From: a virus
DNA: 21,010 nt
Direction: 5' to 3' (one strand)
IMG/VR virus record: IMGVR_UViG_3300025151_000375
Span: 1 to 21,010 of that record
The translations under genes and the position numbers were made by a program. The notes beneath the pieces are model-generated. The model was given only the letters and a program-made list of their open reading frames with translations. It was not told the origin of the DNA and searched no databases. Shown here piece by piece: positions 14,073 to 20,950 of this stretch (position 1 is its first letter; each line of letters starts with the position of its first letter).

Positions 14073-14924
14073 TTACTCCTTCTCTACGTATTGCATAATG
14101 GGTGGCTCTTTTGCCTGTGATACCTTTGATGGTATCTCTTGCAACGTAGGCCAACACTCCTGACGGAAATCGCAAAACTTGCAACCAATGTCAAGTATGT
14201 AGTTACCCGTTTCTTTCCCCCTAAACTTTTCGGGTACAGGGGAAAAGCACCGACTGAAATCATTCTTTATAAGAGTCTCAGTGGTGTCTCGTATCTTGGA
14301 CAGTTGTTCTTGCATGTCTATGTTTGATTTGACATATTTGAACTCTCCATTTGCCTTGTTGATTACCCACCAACCCCCAGCCTTGTAGCCAGAGGCTTGT
14401 GCGTAACCAGCAAGCTGACTCACATAACCAAACGGATCACTCTCTGCAAGAGTCTCGTATGATTTGAACTTGTGTGTATAAGACCAAGCAGACGCTGACT
14501 TCACATCATCAACTGCACCATCAATCACAAGATCATAAGAGCCAGAGACATGAGTATTGTCAATGTCACGTACTGCAAGGCTAACTTTGTCAGTGTCTTT
14601 GTACTCTACACCAGCTTCCGTAAGCACACCTTTAAATACAGCTTCAACTATATCTCCAATCATCATGTTCATTACAAATGTCGTAGGCTTTGGTAAAGCT
14701 TTCTCAGGTTTATTCTTTTCAAACCAGAGTTGACAAGTAGGACGCCCAATGTTGGACATCCTTAATTTAAATTTGTCACGCTTATTACCAGCGCCAAACT
14801 GTCTACGCAACGCATCAGCAACTTCAGTAGCCACACGTTCAATGGTTTCCTCAGACATCTCTGACTTGCCATTGGCAGCGTCCTGAAGGTACTGATGTAT
14901 TGCCAGTTCAGCAGGATGATCCAT
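14073..14924 (-). CDS. Cas4/RecB-like PD-(D/E)XK exonuclease with predicted Fe-S cluster
   Basis: A 283-residue nuclease. Core motifs appear in order: GDIVEAVF (90-97), GSYDLVID (Asp131), DDVKSA (Asp140-x-Lys142) and QLAGY (Gln170...Tyr174). These are the RecB-family motifs II, III and the QxxxY helix. Cys64 and C248-x2-C251-x5-C257 match the four cysteines that hold a 4Fe-4S cluster in Cas4 and AddB nucleases. Such phage enzymes commonly process DNA ends in recombination or degrade host DNA. No CRISPR array or Cas1 is nearby, so this is a phage replication or recombination nuclease. The ATG shares a base with the stop of the SSB-like gene (TAATG), implying coupled synthesis. Confidence 0.88.
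   Translation of the reverse strand: MDHPAELAIHQYLQDAANGKSEMSEETIERVATEVADALRRQFGAGNKRDKFKLRMSNIGRPTCQLWFEKNKPEKALPKPTTFVMNMMIGDIVEAVFKGVLTEAGVEYKDTDKVSLAVRDIDNTHVSGSYDLVIDGAVDDVKSASAWSYTHKFKSYETLAESDPFGYVSQLAGYAQASGYKAGGWWVINKANGEFKYVKSNIDMQEQLSKIRDTTETLIKNDFSRCFSPVPEKFRGKETGNYILDIGCKFCDFRQECWPTLQEIPSKVSQAKEPPIMQYVEKE
14076..14081 (-). promoter_or_regulatory. Ribosome binding site fixing the coiled-coil gene start
   Basis: AAGGAG on the minus strand, five bases before the ATG at 14070. It decides for this start against the ORF-extending ATG at 14184. Confidence 0.7.
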
Positions 14925-15820
14925 TATGCAAATTCTTCCATGTCTGCATCTATGATATCATCTACGTCACCGAATGGAATGTCCTCGTGTTTATGCACGT
15001 TTTCATCCCATGCGTTGGAAATGTACTCATTGTAGTTTGCAATCCATGCAAGAAAGTTCGTAAGAGTTTCTTGTGCGTTTTCATCCAAATCCAATGTGTT
15101 TGTCACATCCAACTCCAACTCAGGCAGGAAGAAGCTGCTACCGTTAGGTAGGTTGCGCTCCTGTGTACCTGACTTGATCGTGTGCATTGGTGGTAGTCTT
15201 CGCATCTTTGCAAGCTTTGTAAAGATTCCCCCAGACATTTTAAATGCATCACGATTCTCAATCTCCCAGATAAAGGGAGTATCTACCAAGTCTTGATTGA
15301 CAGGATTACCGTTGGCATCCACAGGATTGACCAGTGATACTGTGCCAAACATAACACGTACCCGTTTAATCTGACGAATCAGATCTTGTGTCTTCTGAGG
15401 CAGAGCCTTGAAGTCTTCAATCCATCCTGCAGGTTTACCACAGTTGAACCCACCGTCATTGTCTTTCAGATCAATGTTCAAGTTGTCAGCCATGACAGTC
15501 TTGATGTAACGGTTGGGTGTTGAGTCATTGCCCTTCACGAAACGCTTGTACATGTAGCGTTGCATGTATGGACGAATGATTGCAGAATCAGCGTAGTAGG
15601 TAGGCCCATCTGGAATCTCCAGCTTGTACGTACCACCAGCTACAACCTCAAGCTTTACCTGCTTGCCGTTTACTTCCTGCTCACCCATGATAGGTGAGTG
15701 GTTAATGCGTAGTCGTGCAAGCGTAGAGCTATCACGGGATGGTTTGTTCTCCGCAGCCATCCCAAGTGTAGCTGCCATCTGATTGTAATCTGCAGTGTTA
15801 AATGTTTCTACTAGTGTCAT
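14924..15820 (-). CDS. Putative single-stranded-DNA-binding protein
   Basis: A 298-residue protein without an enzymatic motif. The last ~17 residues form a very acidic tail ending in a phenylalanine (DDIIDADMEEFA). T7 gp2.5 and bacterial SSBs end in the same kind of acidic, aromatic-tipped tail, which contacts polymerase and helicase. The body contains many aromatic and basic residues (YYADSAIIRPYMQRYMYKRF, IKRVRVMFG) suited to ssDNA stacking. It lies between the DNA polymerase and exonuclease genes, as SSBs do in T7-like phages. It has its own strong ribosome binding site (AAGGAG) and a predicted promoter just upstream, fitting a protein needed in stoichiometric amounts. The fold is not proven from sequence. 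Confidence 0.72.
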   Translation of the reverse strand: MTLVETFNTADYNQMAATLGMAAENKPSRDSSTLARLRINHSPIMGEQEVNGKQVKLEVVAGGTYKLEIPDGPTYYADSAIIRPYMQRYMYKRFVKGNDSTPNRYIKTVMADNLNIDLKDNDGGFNCGKPAGWIEDFKALPQKTQDLIRQIKRVRVMFGTVSLVNPVDANGNPVNQDLVDTPFIWEIENRDAFKMSGGIFTKLAKMRRLPPMHTIKSGTQERNLPNGSSFFLPELELDVTNTLDLDENAQETLTNFLAWIANYNEYISNAWDENVHKHEDIPFGDVDDIIDADMEEFA

Positions 15821-15853: not shown

Positions 15854-15882
15854 GTTATATCACGCAACATCTTTTGTGTCAA
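15854..15882 (-). promoter_or_regulatory. Sigma70-type promoter inside the 3' end of the polymerase gene
   Basis: On the minus strand TTGACA (15877-15882), a 17-base spacer and TATAAC (15854-15859), preceded by TG at the extended -10 position (TGATATAAC). The TGA of that element is the stop codon of the polymerase gene. The -35 lies in its last codons. Transcription would begin near 15847, giving a leader of roughly 27 bases before the SSB-like ATG at 15820. The 39-base gap here is the largest between genes inside the operon. Confidence 0.75.
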
Positions 15883-17905
15883 GCCAATTTGGACCTATTT
15901 TTGCTTCTAATAAAAGAGGCACATTTAGATCAAGGTTCCAACGCTTGTTCACTAAAGATGTCAATACCTCATTAGTGCGGCTAATGATCCGTAGTACTTT
16001 CTCCTTCTCGTTAGGGTGTACGTCAATCACAATACTGTCATGCACTGTGTTGACGATACAACTGTTAAGTTTATTTACCTCTAGCATCTTGTCGATGTAT
16101 ATCAGAGATATGGGTACAATGTCAGCAGTAGCAAACGATTGTACAGGATAATTTTTTATCTGTGTGAAATATGTCACACCCCCATAACGTCTACGTTCAA
16201 CGTCAGGGAATGCGAACTCACGCCCAGATGGTGTAGTTATCTTTCCTGTGTTCAATGCTTCCTTTGCCAATGCTTCATGCCACTTGGCAATGCCACTGTA
16301 TTTCGTAGTGAACTGCCTGTAGTACGCAGCTTCCGCTTGTGTTCTGCCAAAGCCACTTGCTCCATACAAGGGAGCGAATGTGTGCGCCTTGGCCTCTTGT
16401 CTGCTCATAGCCTGACCTGCATCAGTGATAACCTTGGCAGTGTACGAGTGTACATCAAAGCCTGTAGTTACTTCGTCAATCGCAGTCCTGTCTTGCGATA
16501 GGAACGCAGCGACACGAAACTCAAGCTGGGCGAAGTCAGCTTCCATCACACACCCATGATCCCATCGTGATTTGAATACACGTTTGACAGGGAACGTACC
16601 ACCACGTGGCATGTTCTGCATGTTAGGATCTGCCCCTGACAGTCTACCCGTGCCTGTGCGATGCTGCAACAATCTCACATGAAGTTTACCATCAGGCTTG
16701 ACGTGTGTTGCAATGCCCTCTACAAAACTGGACAGGTAGGTTTCTACAGCAGATAGCCTACGCACATTTGATAGAAACTGTTCTGCCTCTGTGTTACCCT
16801 TGCTACGAGCAATACCCTCAAGGTAGACGAGATTATCCTTACTTGTACTAAAGCCATTAGCACTGATCCACTTGGCTGTAGGTGCAGTAAACCTTAGTCC
16901 TGCCACAGTATGGGTATCCAGAAATAGAAAGCCAGTAGCGTCACAATCATTACATCTGTTAGTTCTTGCATACGGTGTACCATCCTTCCTTACTTTTCGT
17001 ATATACCCATTACCTTTGCAGGTGTTGCACTGCTTTGCCTTCTGTTTGTACAACACATTGCTACTGTTTCGTACTTGGTACTTGTAGTCTTGTTCATCCA
17101 TTCTTTCATCAAACAGATCTGCCCAAAACTTTTTGTCCTTTGGCTTGCGGCTATAGATAACCCAAGACAATTGCTCTGGGCTATTGAGATTGATAGGTGT
17201 GTCACCCATCAGTGTGCGTACCTGTGCCTCTAGGCTTGCGATAAGCGTATCACGCTCTCTTGTAAACTCTTCACGCACCTCTTCAAGCACAGACAGATCA
17301 ACAGCAAAGCCACGTTGGTATATACGTGTGAGGTGTACAGCAAGTTGATTGGTCAGACGTATTGTTCCTTCCAGTGTACTGCATTCCTCGTACTGTGTCT
17401 GCAAACGCAAGTACAGTTGTTGTGTTGCTTTTACATCATCTATGCAATAGCTTGCAAGTTCTTCGTAGGGCATGTCACGAACTTGTTTACCAGCCTTCAA
17501 CCATTCTTTCATAGTGTCTTGCTTTTTTGTGTCAAGTTCGTAACGCTCTGCACAAGCCTCAAGGGTCAGTGGTTCTTTACGTCCACGTTGCAATACATAC
17601 TCGCCTAACATGGTATCAAAGATAGGCCCGTTGTATGTAAACCCTGACTCCCACAACCAAAGGAGATCGTGTGCGGCATTGTGCATAATTAATAAGGGAG
17701 CACAGTCAAGAAGATCTTGCACTATTTGTGCTCCCCTGTTGGTGGGTGGATGCTCTGCGTGATCAAATGTCACAGTAGCTTCGTTGCCAAGATCATCTAG
17801 CATACCCACCATAACCAATGTATTCTCAGGCTCAAACGGATCAAGGTGTGTCTTCCCATCCCGTTTGGTTACAGTGTTTTCTATGTCGAGTGTTAAGTGT
17901 TTCAT
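15860..17905 (-). CDS. Family A DNA polymerase with DnaJ-type zinc insertion
   Basis: The replicative polymerase, 681 residues. The 3'-5' exonuclease is intact: D7/E9 (LDIE), HNAAHD (Asp80) and YCIDD with D157. The polymerase motifs are intact: A, D457 in ADFAQLEFR; B, R502-x3-K506-x3-F510-x3-Y514-G; C, VHDS with D623. Residue F510 corresponds to Phe762 of E. coli Pol I. Between the two parts, residues 293-325 hold C293-x2-C296-x-G-x-G and C318-x2-C321-x3-G, the pattern of the DnaJ central zinc domain. This insertion is known from SAR116 phage HMO-2011 and relatives. No 5'-3' exonuclease domain is present, as usual for phage enzymes. AGAGGAAAC precedes the ATG, seven bases after the upstream stop. 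Confidence 0.97.
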   Translation of the reverse strand: MKHLTLDIENTVTKRDGKTHLDPFEPENTLVMVGMLDDLGNEATVTFDHAEHPPTNRGAQIVQDLLDCAPLLIMHNAAHDLLWLWESGFTYNGPIFDTMLGEYVLQRGRKEPLTLEACAERYELDTKKQDTMKEWLKAGKQVRDMPYEELASYCIDDVKATQQLYLRLQTQYEECSTLEGTIRLTNQLAVHLTRIYQRGFAVDLSVLEEVREEFTRERDTLIASLEAQVRTLMGDTPINLNSPEQLSWVIYSRKPKDKKFWADLFDERMDEQDYKYQVRNSSNVLYKQKAKQCNTCKGNGYIRKVRKDGTPYARTNRCNDCDATGFLFLDTHTVAGLRFTAPTAKWISANGFSTSKDNLVYLEGIARSKGNTEAEQFLSNVRRLSAVETYLSSFVEGIATHVKPDGKLHVRLLQHRTGTGRLSGADPNMQNMPRGGTFPVKRVFKSRWDHGCVMEADFAQLEFRVAAFLSQDRTAIDEVTTGFDVHSYTAKVITDAGQAMSRQEAKAHTFAPLYGASGFGRTQAEAAYYRQFTTKYSGIAKWHEALAKEALNTGKITTPSGREFAFPDVERRRYGGVTYFTQIKNYPVQSFATADIVPISLIYIDKMLEVNKLNSCIVNTVHDSIVIDVHPNEKEKVLRIISRTNEVLTSLVNKRWNLDLNVPLLLEAKIGPNWLDTKDVA

Positions 17906-17912
17906 GTTTCCT

Positions 17913-18161
17913 CTAATGGTCTGGTGTTATTTCGTCAAAGTCATCAGCTATGTATAACTCACTCCCATAATAATCGTCAAGCTGTTTTTGAAAGTCTTTG
18001 TCATTTGAGTAGCGATTCATTGCTTCTATTGCTTCATTCAGGTTCAGTTTATTACGTATCATAGCGTTGTATAGTTTCATTTCTTCATTCATATTACGTG
18101 TATTCATGGCGTATTTCTCCTTTGCACGTTGTCGTTCTTCATCCGTCATTTCTCTTATCAT
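17913..18161 (-). CDS. Small helical protein between thyX and polymerase genes
   Basis: An 82-residue protein that I do not recognise. The start at 18161 is preferred because its A is shared with the TAA of thyX (TAATG) and GAGGAAG precedes it. A longer frame from 18188 would overlap thyX. Residues 5-60 are predominantly charged helix with many Met and Asn residues (MNTRNMNEEMKLYNAMIRNK). The C-terminal 20 residues are acidic (ELYIADDFDEITPDH). It may bind a replication protein through this tail, but that is inference from composition. Seven bases separate it from the polymerase gene. Confidence 0.75.
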   Translation of the reverse strand: MIREMTDEERQRAKEKYAMNTRNMNEEMKLYNAMIRNKLNLNEAIEAMNRYSNDKDFQKQLDDYYGSELYIADDFDEITPDH

Positions 18162-18907
18162 TACTCTTCCTCTAGACAAAAGCCACATATGTCATTGTAT
18201 GATGGCCCACCACAACTCACGCATGTCTGCCATTTATCTTCGCTAACACCCCTTAGTAGGGCATCCCATGACACAGGAAACTTTATACTCATTGCGTTAC
18301 TAATTTGCTTTGCAACTTCACGTGTCTCTGCTTGTGTGTCATCTGCACATCTAAGTTTACACATATCAGCCCACGCATCTAGGCTACCTGACCAGTACCA
18401 CTCAGTCATCATTGACTGTGGTAGTATCATACGCGCTTGCTCTGGACAGACACCATCCTGTAGCATCTCTAAATAAGCTCTTCTAGCCCAAATAGAAGCC
18501 TTTGCTTCAGACCTCATAGTAGAACTAGATGGAACTATTGTACCGCCTGACCCCTGCTTCTTGTCTTCTGCCTTACGTCTGTATGTAGCAGGTTCATAAA
18601 ACTCAGGATCACTGTCCACATACCTACGACTGATCTCGTTCCAACGTAGGAACTTGTGCTTGACCAACTGCCTAGCCACAAATACAGGAGCTTTGACATG
18701 GAAGCTGGCAAAGCAATGACCGAATGGGCTGATATGTTTGTGCTCTGCAAGATAGTGTATTAGCTTTTTGTCCTTCTCTTCAAGAACCCATTTACCTATC
18801 ATGTTATCAACACAGACCATGCCTGACCGTTTGCCAAACGACACACGGGCAGCGTTCACAACTGTAATGTCACCACCCATGTGATCCAAGTTAGTTACTT
18901 TTATCAT
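18161..18907 (-). CDS. thyX: Flavin-dependent thymidylate synthase with C-terminal Cys4 knuckle
   Basis: Makes dTMP from dUMP using methylene-tetrahydrofolate and FAD/NADPH. The ThyX region HISPFGH (58-64) is followed by the signature at 83-96: K-H-K-x3-W-N-E-I-S-R-R-Y. The usual R-H-R is replaced by K-H-K, while N-E-x-S-x-R-Y is intact. Downstream, E-x-R (156-159) and a C-terminal FP-x-S-W stretch complete the ThyX part by about residue 220. Beyond it lies TCVSC...CGFC with C229, C232, C241 and C244, a Cys4 zinc-knuckle-like extension not part of the ThyX fold. The start overlaps the helicase stop by four bases (ATGA). With nrdJ in the same operon it provides DNA precursors. Confidence 0.93.
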   Translation of the reverse strand: MIKVTNLDHMGGDITVVNAARVSFGKRSGMVCVDNMIGKWVLEEKDKKLIHYLAEHKHISPFGHCFASFHVKAPVFVARQLVKHKFLRWNEISRRYVDSDPEFYEPATYRRKAEDKKQGSGGTIVPSSSTMRSEAKASIWARRAYLEMLQDGVCPEQARMILPQSMMTEWYWSGSLDAWADMCKLRCADDTQAETREVAKQISNAMSIKFPVSWDALLRGVSEDKWQTCVSCGGPSYNDICGFCLEEE

Positions 18908-20127
18908 GCTACGTACCTCGCTATCTTGTACTCCAAATCAGTGTGGACAATACCATGCCAACCAGACAACTTGTTCTTAACAATGTTGATGTGACGTTGG
19001 TTGTCCTCTTCCTCTTGCCCCTCTACTGTAGGGTTCTTGGAAATCATAATCATCAAGTCAGCTTCTGCCGCCTTACCTGTACGTGAACCTTCCATCATGG
19101 CTTGGTTCAGTACCACCTTGCCCTCTGCCTCTGCTGATAGCTGAGACATGTAGAAGATAGCACAGTCATGCTGCTTGGCTATTTGTCGGGCATAGATTGC
19201 ATTAGCCTTGAGTGCTTCATCAGGACGTGCAAACCCACCTGTCTTGGCAAACTTGTCACCCATGTCTAGTATCACAATGTCAGGCTTGTATGACTTGCAC
19301 ACAGACTCAACCCATGACATATCACGTCCTGTCGCATCCTTGAACATAATGTTCTTGCGTATTCTATCGTACACATCTGAAGCGGTAATCTTGTTCTTGC
19401 TGATCTGGAATTTATCCATGCCAGTAGCTGCCGTGATGTATCTATGTGCGACTCTGTGATACCCCTCTTCATTACATAACACGATACACTTTGCGCCTTG
19501 CCACGCAAATCCTTTAGGCCCAGCCACAAGAGAAGCATGGAAGGACGTTTTTCCTGTGTTTGGCCTTGCGCCAACCTCAATCAAGTGTCCTGCATTAATG
19601 CCCTCTACCTTACGTGTGAGCGTAGGTATATTGAACGTCCACTGTGACTCAAGGTCTGTCATAGCAAGTATCGTATCAAGACTAGTATCTTCCCACTCTA
19701 CTTTTAGGTTGGGCGTGAAGTCATCACCGTATGACTCTAGTAGATTACGCAAAGGCTCAAGACTAGACTTGTCACCATTCACATAGTCAAAGCCAAGGTT
19801 GGCAATGTCCTCGCCCACCACCTGTTGGAACAGCTTCGATAACACTTCTTGTGCTATATCACTGCCCATAGGCTTCTCACGTTTTACCTGATGGAACAGA
19901 TGGCTGTATGCCTGTTTCTGTGCCGTGGTAAGTGTGGGATTGTTTGCCATGAACAGAGCTTCTATTTCGTCAGGTGTGACGGTACGTTCGTATCTGTACA
20001 TAGCTGTATCAATAGACTGCTTGATCTTTCGCACGTCTTTGCTGAATAGCCTGTCTGGACACTTTGCCCCACGATGGTCATCGTAGAACTCTTTATCCAT
20101 AAGACTACGTATAAGTGATAATTCCAT
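18904..20127 (-). CDS. DnaB/gp4-type replicative helicase
   Basis: A 407-residue RecA-fold (SF4) helicase. Walker A is GARPNTGKT (186-194), the probable catalytic Glu is in CNEEG (220-221), and Walker B is DIVILD with D288. YMSQLSAEAEGK (327-337) matches helicase motif H3, and GSRTGKAAEAD...KNK-x2-G matches H4. The first ~150 residues are helical and do not look like a full DnaB N-terminal domain. In T7 the helicase is fused to the primase; here the primase is a separate gene ending one base before this start. It probably forms a hexamer that unwinds the fork ahead of the family A polymerase. Its stop overlaps thyX by four bases. Confidence 0.92.
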   Translation of the reverse strand: MELSLIRSLMDKEFYDDHRGAKCPDRLFSKDVRKIKQSIDTAMYRYERTVTPDEIEALFMANNPTLTTAQKQAYSHLFHQVKREKPMGSDIAQEVLSKLFQQVVGEDIANLGFDYVNGDKSSLEPLRNLLESYGDDFTPNLKVEWEDTSLDTILAMTDLESQWTFNIPTLTRKVEGINAGHLIEVGARPNTGKTSFHASLVAGPKGFAWQGAKCIVLCNEEGYHRVAHRYITAATGMDKFQISKNKITASDVYDRIRKNIMFKDATGRDMSWVESVCKSYKPDIVILDMGDKFAKTGGFARPDEALKANAIYARQIAKQHDCAIFYMSQLSAEAEGKVVLNQAMMEGSRTGKAAEADLMIMISKNPTVEGQEEEDNQRHINIVKNKLSGWHGIVHTDLEYKIARYVA

Positions 20128-20128
20128 A

Positions 20129-20917
20129 TTATTCTCCTAGCGTTGTCAGTTTCATCATGTCGGTTGGATTCCTGTACTTCAGGTCATCCGTCAGGCGTAA
20201 GACACGAACTGTGTCCACGTACCCTCGTAATTCTTTTGCGATTGCCAAAGTCTTTGGTAGTGCATCGGGGTCTAGCGCAATCACTGCTGTTGAGAACTGT
20301 GACAAGTGCTTCCTATGACCCTCTGATAATGATGTACCCAACACTGCTACCCCGACATATACATCATCACCTCGGCATCCAGTTCCGTCTGTTGCGCCCA
20401 CAATTGCCGCACTCACACAGTCCTCAACAACTACAGCAGTTTTACCACATCCGTAGGTGTATGGCAATACACTTTTTCCATATCTTTTCCATTTAGGTAA
20501 ACGCTTTGATAGGCTTCGCCCCGTAGCGTCTGCCAGTACACTGCCCTGCATAATAGGGAACACCACACGATGTTCCTTTACATCATACAGTAGCCCCAAG
20601 GATTTGGGGTCAAGCTTCCATTGGTCGCAGAACTCCCCGATTGCATCGTAGTCCTGCACAAACCAATCAGGCTTTGAAAAACCTACAGAGTGTGTCTCTG
20701 TTGCAACACTGCCAAGGGAGTTACGTATGTCATCTGCTGACAGATGCACACGCTTACCCCCAGACACAGAGCACCCTGCTTTGTAGCAGTTCCACACAAG
20801 TGAACCCATATTGTTAGTAATGGTAAACGTTTTGTACCCATTACATGTAGGACAATTCATACGTTTAGTTTCACCATTACTAAGTGATATGTCATTAATT
20901 ATATTTTTTATATTCAT
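20129..20917 (-). CDS. DNA primase (zinc-binding plus Toprim)
   Basis: A gp4-like primase as a separate protein of 262 residues (265 if started at GTG 20926). Numbered from the GTG form, the N-terminal zinc motif is C25-P-T-C28...C47-x4-C52. The Toprim domain follows: VVVEDCVSA with E168, and IALDPDA with D219 and D221. In T7 the zinc domain reads the template and Toprim makes the RNA primer. The ATG at 20917 is preferred, because GTG at 20926 lies directly against the AGAAAG sequence; neither start has a strong Shine-Dalgarno. It is the first gene of the operon inside the window and is followed one base later by the helicase. Confidence 0.9.
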   Translation of the reverse strand: MNIKNIINDISLSNGETKRMNCPTCNGYKTFTITNNMGSLVWNCYKAGCSVSGGKRVHLSADDIRNSLGSVATETHSVGFSKPDWFVQDYDAIGEFCDQWKLDPKSLGLLYDVKEHRVVFPIMQGSVLADATGRSLSKRLPKWKRYGKSVLPYTYGCGKTAVVVEDCVSAAIVGATDGTGCRGDDVYVGVAVLGTSLSEGHRKHLSQFSTAVIALDPDALPKTLAIAKELRGYVDTVRVLRLTDDLKYRNPTDMMKLTTLGE

Positions 20918-20950
20918 ATGTATCACTTTCTATGTTGTTCGTTTCACTCA

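Follow-up and report, generated by a model that had tools for sequence, protein, structure and literature searches.

HMO-2011-type phages belong to the most abundant phages of the ocean; a family A DNA polymerase with a zinc module serves as the marker of the group. All HMO-2011-type polymerases have been described as containing two CXXCXGXG motifs in a "partial DnaJ central domain" (PMC9038755, PMC6918029), and PF00684 is already noted in the GenBank record of HMO-2011. In individual datasets of GOV 2.0, the group accounts for as much as 19.7% of the family A polymerases (PMC9038755). In both publications the marker is presented as a DnaJ fragment, with no polymerase function stated. The architecture of the zinc-module polymerase is already published, and the enzyme studied here is another HMO-2011-type member. 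What we add is the exact site of the module in the thumb, its assignment to a DnaJ-like zinc center II, a conserved basic hairpin, and a candidate single-stranded-DNA-binding protein (SSB) gene next door. The thumb-tip site, the conserved basic hairpin, and the likely adjacent SSB gene lead to a concrete question about processivity, one that is testable with purified proteins.

The window, by which we mean the whole stretch of DNA analyzed (21,010 nucleotides of IMG/VR record IMGVR_UViG_3300025151_000375), is a 21-kb fragment of a viral genome. Its minus strand encodes a 681-residue enzyme (positions 15860 to 17905) that its translation, Pfam, and the polymerase tree identify as a family A DNA polymerase of the HMO-2011 type. 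A 3'-5' exonuclease domain (PF01612; E value, 2.5e-11) covers residues 42 to 171 (17393 to 17782, minus strand) and DNA_pol_A (PF00476; E value, 1.2e-53) covers residues 349 to 675 (15881 to 16861, minus strand). The latter match bears out the family A assignment made in an earlier note on this DNA, and the enzyme has the combination of family A polymerase and 3'-5' exonuclease that is expected of the HMO-2011 type. An AlphaFold2 model built from 63 sequences, with a pLDDT of 89.3 overall and 84 to 88 within the zinc module, has Bst and Klenow polymerases as its whole-enzyme structural matches. The replication module of the polymerase also includes, on the minus strand, a DnaB-like replicative helicase (18904 to 20127; PF03796, E value of 6.3e-13; phrog_19) and a primase (20129 to 20926; phrog_47, E value of 4e-14). 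The closest polymerase from an isolate is that of Roseobacter phage CRP-345 (80.6% identity; HMO-2011, 65.1%), and the polymerases of HMO-2011, CRP-1, CRP-345, and HTVC033P share the same domain order, zinc module, 21-residue spacing, and genomic neighbors. A tree of 30 rows groups the window enzyme, as anticipated and with strong support, with CRP-345, CRP-1, and HMO-2011; owing to long branches, the positions of MEP401 and of the Myxococcota row in this tree are uncertain. The zinc polymerases all lie on one side of a branch with support of 96/94, and the data are therefore compatible with a single origin.

Residues 293 to 325 of the translated enzyme read CNTCKGNG-YIRKVRKDGTPYARTNR-CNDCDATG. 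The motif first proposed for this site, C293-x2-C296-x-G-x-G, 21 residues, and C318-x2-C321-x3-G (16931 to 17029, minus strand), is exact to the residue, and it does lie between the exonuclease and DNA_pol_A matches, where HMO-2011-type polymerases have their partial DnaJ-like Cys4 module. The zinc module proper spans residues 286 to 328 (16922 to 17050, minus strand), as delimited by conservation, AlphaFold2 secondary structure and pLDDT, and the profile match to DnaJ center II. Its order is strand, Cys knuckle, basic hairpin, Cys knuckle, and start of a strand, with predicted strands (residues 286 to 292 and 326 to 334) flanking both knuckles. The two invariant Cys pairs, C293-x2-C296 (17018 to 17029, minus strand) and C318-x2-C321 (16943 to 16954, minus strand), are present in each of the 188 extracted full-length HMO-type polymerases, and the module is thus not a chance feature. 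Only 1 of 189 full-length relatives, the more distant enzyme of Stenotrophomonas phage StenR_269, is missing them. The pairs are 21 residues apart in 187 of the 188 and 33 apart in CRP-738 (L086:3001-5151), whose hairpin exceeds that of all other members by 12 residues and is also more basic, at net +11.

Among 47 nonredundant zinc polymerases, the positions that never change are the four Cys and Gly298, Gly300, Gly309, and Gly325. The hairpin (residues 303 to 317, RKVRKDGTPYARTNR; 16955 to 16999, minus strand) is recognized by its conserved basic residues. In the same sequences, positions 304 and 306, like position 287 ahead of the first Cys pair, are basic in 47 of 47, position 307 in 98%, and position 317 in 94%. 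The net charge of the module is +3 to +11, and the median for the whole protein is -2. The published wording of two CXXCXGXG motifs (PMC9038755) is exact for the first. The second is CNDCDATG here and CTECDARG in CRP-345, both with Ala at residue 323 in place of the Gly of that pattern, as in 14 of the 47 nonredundant sequences. Because CRP-345 was itself included in PMC9038755, the two-motif criterion cannot be strict.

The best match of the module profile among all PDB sequences is the Cys-rich domain of E. coli DnaJ (1exk; E value, 8.6e-6), and the part aligned consists of DnaJ motifs 2 and 3, that is, zinc center II. The earlier note's description of one zinc center of the DnaJ central domain agrees with this profile search, which points to a center II-like unit. 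The Pfam family fares less clearly: PF00684 does match residues 288 to 326 with an E value of 8e-5, but the score of 23.3 bits is below the curated cutoff of 32.7. Of 63 aligned members, 62 match PF00684 at an E value of <0.01, the exception being the zinc-free outgroup. The likeness to center II consists of CxxCxGxG, a hairpin, and CxxC. In contrast to the DnaJ Cys-rich domain, the module has one center rather than two and a hairpin of 21 rather than 18 residues; this hairpin is strongly basic, whereas that of E. coli DnaJ center II (GQVQMRQGFFAVQQT) lacks the conserved basic residues. A second zinc center, which would need four CXXCXGXG motifs, was not found in the region, where there are only two Cys pairs, and unlike DnaJ the polymerase has no J domain. 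Having one center instead of two, the module is, as judged from its sequence, a DnaJ-like single center and not a DnaJ domain, and the label "DnaJ-type" should not imply a chaperone function. Weaker matches of the profile in the PDB include Anti-TRAP, human DnaJA3, and phage antitermination protein Q; those to the Q and Anti-TRAP zinc domains fall on the same Cys region with E values of 0.09 to 9.3, near noise, as are a Q-like PHROG match (E value, 0.007) and Pfam Anti-TRAP in 8 of 63 members. Phage Q and Anti-TRAP proteins are small regulators, unlike the polymerase that carries the module.

More precisely, and judging by the alignment with E. coli DNA polymerase I and relatives, the interval between exonuclease and polymerase domains is the thumb-tip loop. 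Residue 251 of the window enzyme corresponds to Klenow residue 591 and its residue 351 to Klenow residue 606, and hence the 99-residue insertion at residues 252 to 350 (16856 to 17152, minus strand) stands for Klenow residues 592 to 605, in the loop into which the short thumb helix leads. Inserts at this thumb site are graded in length, from 20 to 26 residues in StenR_269, L207, and one Myxococcota sequence, through 50 to 55 in MEP401 and ICP2-like phages, to 99 to 123 in HMO-type polymerases. The thioredoxin-binding domain of T7 gp5 is likewise a thumb-tip insertion in a family A phage polymerase and has conserved basic residues. We take this T7 insert to lie before the FNPSS motif (T7 residues 334 to 338). 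The T7 domain precedes the FNPSS helix, whereas the window insert follows the matching helix, at its other end, and lacks a thioredoxin-binding sequence. For this comparison the helix was located by eye from the T7 sequence because MAFFT misplaced it. The SbetaalphaR motif of the G20c polymerase (PMC9629493) was considered as a counterpart and rejected, since it is found close to where the exonuclease domain ends and is not the same insertion.

The gene beside the polymerase (14924 to 15820, minus strand; 298 amino acids) likely encodes, on the evidence of AlphaFold2, VIA-align, BFVD, and synteny, a gp32-like SSB with an acidic tail, possibly a partner of the polymerase. Homologues in the same slot are annotated as hypothetical in isolates, and an SSB is not mentioned in PMC9038755. 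The product is predicted to fold into a beta-rich domain followed by a disordered acidic tail at residues 280 to 298 (14927 to 14983, minus strand; pLDDT of <50). Of the best five VIA-align rows, four are gp32 cores or complexes with Z scores of 6.6 to 7.7, all below 8; the other is an unrelated phiC31 integrase-RDF entry (9teh_I; Z score, 7.0), and from rank 6 on the Z scores are at most 3.3. The BFVD matches include a viral protein named SSB (E value, 2.7e-4). No PDB entry reached an E value of ≤0.001 in Foldseek, where MHC chains made up most of the matches and a gp32-Dda entry came fifth, and sequence-based searches yielded no match to an SSB family. We regard the second look with VIA-align and the BFVD matches as more telling for this fold than Foldseek. 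The acidic C-terminal tail expected of a gp32-like SSB is present, and the last 20 residues of the homologues carry a net charge of -3 to -10 (137 loci, StenR_269 included). The MEP401 protein in this slot ends in SIDDLESDIPF, a terminus that we take to resemble the bacterial SSB tip.

The position of the module in the alignment, its single Cys4 motif, its invariance, its basic charge, and its restriction to one clade are direct observations, and from the thumb tip a basic hairpin pinned by zinc would be well placed to hold the product duplex. The leading explanation, to which we give about an even chance, is that the module is a zinc-stapled, basic DNA grip that aids processivity. A single putative zinc and the four Cys would pin a DnaJ-center-II-like beta-hairpin at the tip of the thumb, with its basic side of conserved Lys and Arg residues facing outward; behind the active site, the hairpin may then hold the newly made duplex by its backbone, which would increase DNA affinity and processivity. 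By analogy, it could do from within the enzyme what the recruited thioredoxin clamp does at the thumb tip of the T7 polymerase. The location of the insert at residues 252 to 350 within the thumb, the conserved basic residues, the fixed Cys spacing, and the confident local model argue for such a grip, as do the shorter inserts of zinc-free relatives in the same loop, which are basic in ICP2-like phages. E. coli Pol I becomes less processive and less accurate when its thumb is truncated (Minnick 1996, as cited in PMC10061031). However, an acidic protein partner would suit the conserved basic residues equally well, and not every member has its most basic stretch in the module, as a median of 13% of 50-residue stretches match or exceed it.

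Such a partner is at the center of the main rival, which we rank second and consider possible but rather unlikely: the basic hairpin may dock the acidic tail of the neighboring SSB-like protein. That protein resembles gp32, its acidic tail recurs at 137 of 137 loci, and its gene lies directly after the polymerase or at most 0.9 kb away wherever there is enough DNA; moreover, acidic helicase tails in T7 bind basic polymerase patches, one of them near the thioredoxin-binding domain (PMC12593628), and for a C. perfringens PolA the thumb tip is the predicted binding site of its SSB (PMC10061031). We place docking behind the grip because acidic-tailed neighbors are also found in the zinc-free StenR_269 and MEP401, and the tail can thus exist without a zinc module. 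The SSB identity is based on fold similarity at Z scores below 8. Tentatively, the two could be combined, in that HMO-2011-type phages might own a self-contained processivity system in which the zinc-pinned thumb hairpin both holds on to DNA and receives the acidic SSB tail; with the same modest probability, phage-encoded parts might here do what T7 achieves with borrowed host thioredoxin. It is less probable that the zinc site is a mere structural staple folding a long thumb loop that has no partner. The Cys and Gly residues are the most conserved positions and conservation within the insert is lowest in the flanks at residues 259 to 285, as a staple would have it, but the conserved basic residues 287, 304, 306, and 307 and the K-D-G turn would be superfluous for a bare staple. 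DnaJ zinc center II matters for work with DnaK, and the profile match to this center could suggest that the module, as a piece of DnaJ, brings in the DnaK chaperone of the host. PMC9038755 points to the involvement of DnaJ in lambda replication. We nevertheless rejected this as the main reading and consider it very improbable, given the lack of a J-domain match, the single center, the score below the Pfam cutoff, the E. coli center II hairpin without the conserved basic residues, and the weak matches to the same type of zinc motif in the nonchaperones Anti-TRAP and Q antiterminators.

When an 87-residue module query was run against 50,697 phage records, only HMO-type polymerases were returned below an E value of 1e-5, and other hits appeared from 0.7. 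Cellular genomes gave 11 loci, mostly on viral-looking marine MAG contigs; Myxococcota locus L258 is without the zinc module. The contigs that encode the HMO-type polymerases at L249 to L254 and L257 were assigned to MAGs of marine bacteria or archaea and are probably phage, and two contigs each turn up in two different MAGs. A StenR_269 query in IMG/VR recovered one locus only. In StenR_269, a thioredoxin-domain protein (L089:2382-2648) is encoded two genes ahead of the zinc-free polymerase with its short thumb loop. The family A polymerases of MEP401, ICP2-like, and VP41s3 phages (L087:6001-8111, L088:2953-5046, and L090:1724-4054) consist of two open reading frames, split after the PNLQN motif, and a small open reading frame lies between the halves in MEP401 and VP41s3. 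The window also encodes a ThyX (18161 to 18907, minus strand) whose C terminus is a Cys4 tail, CVSCGGPSYNDICGFC, that is common to CRP-1 and absent in CRP-345 and CRP-3.
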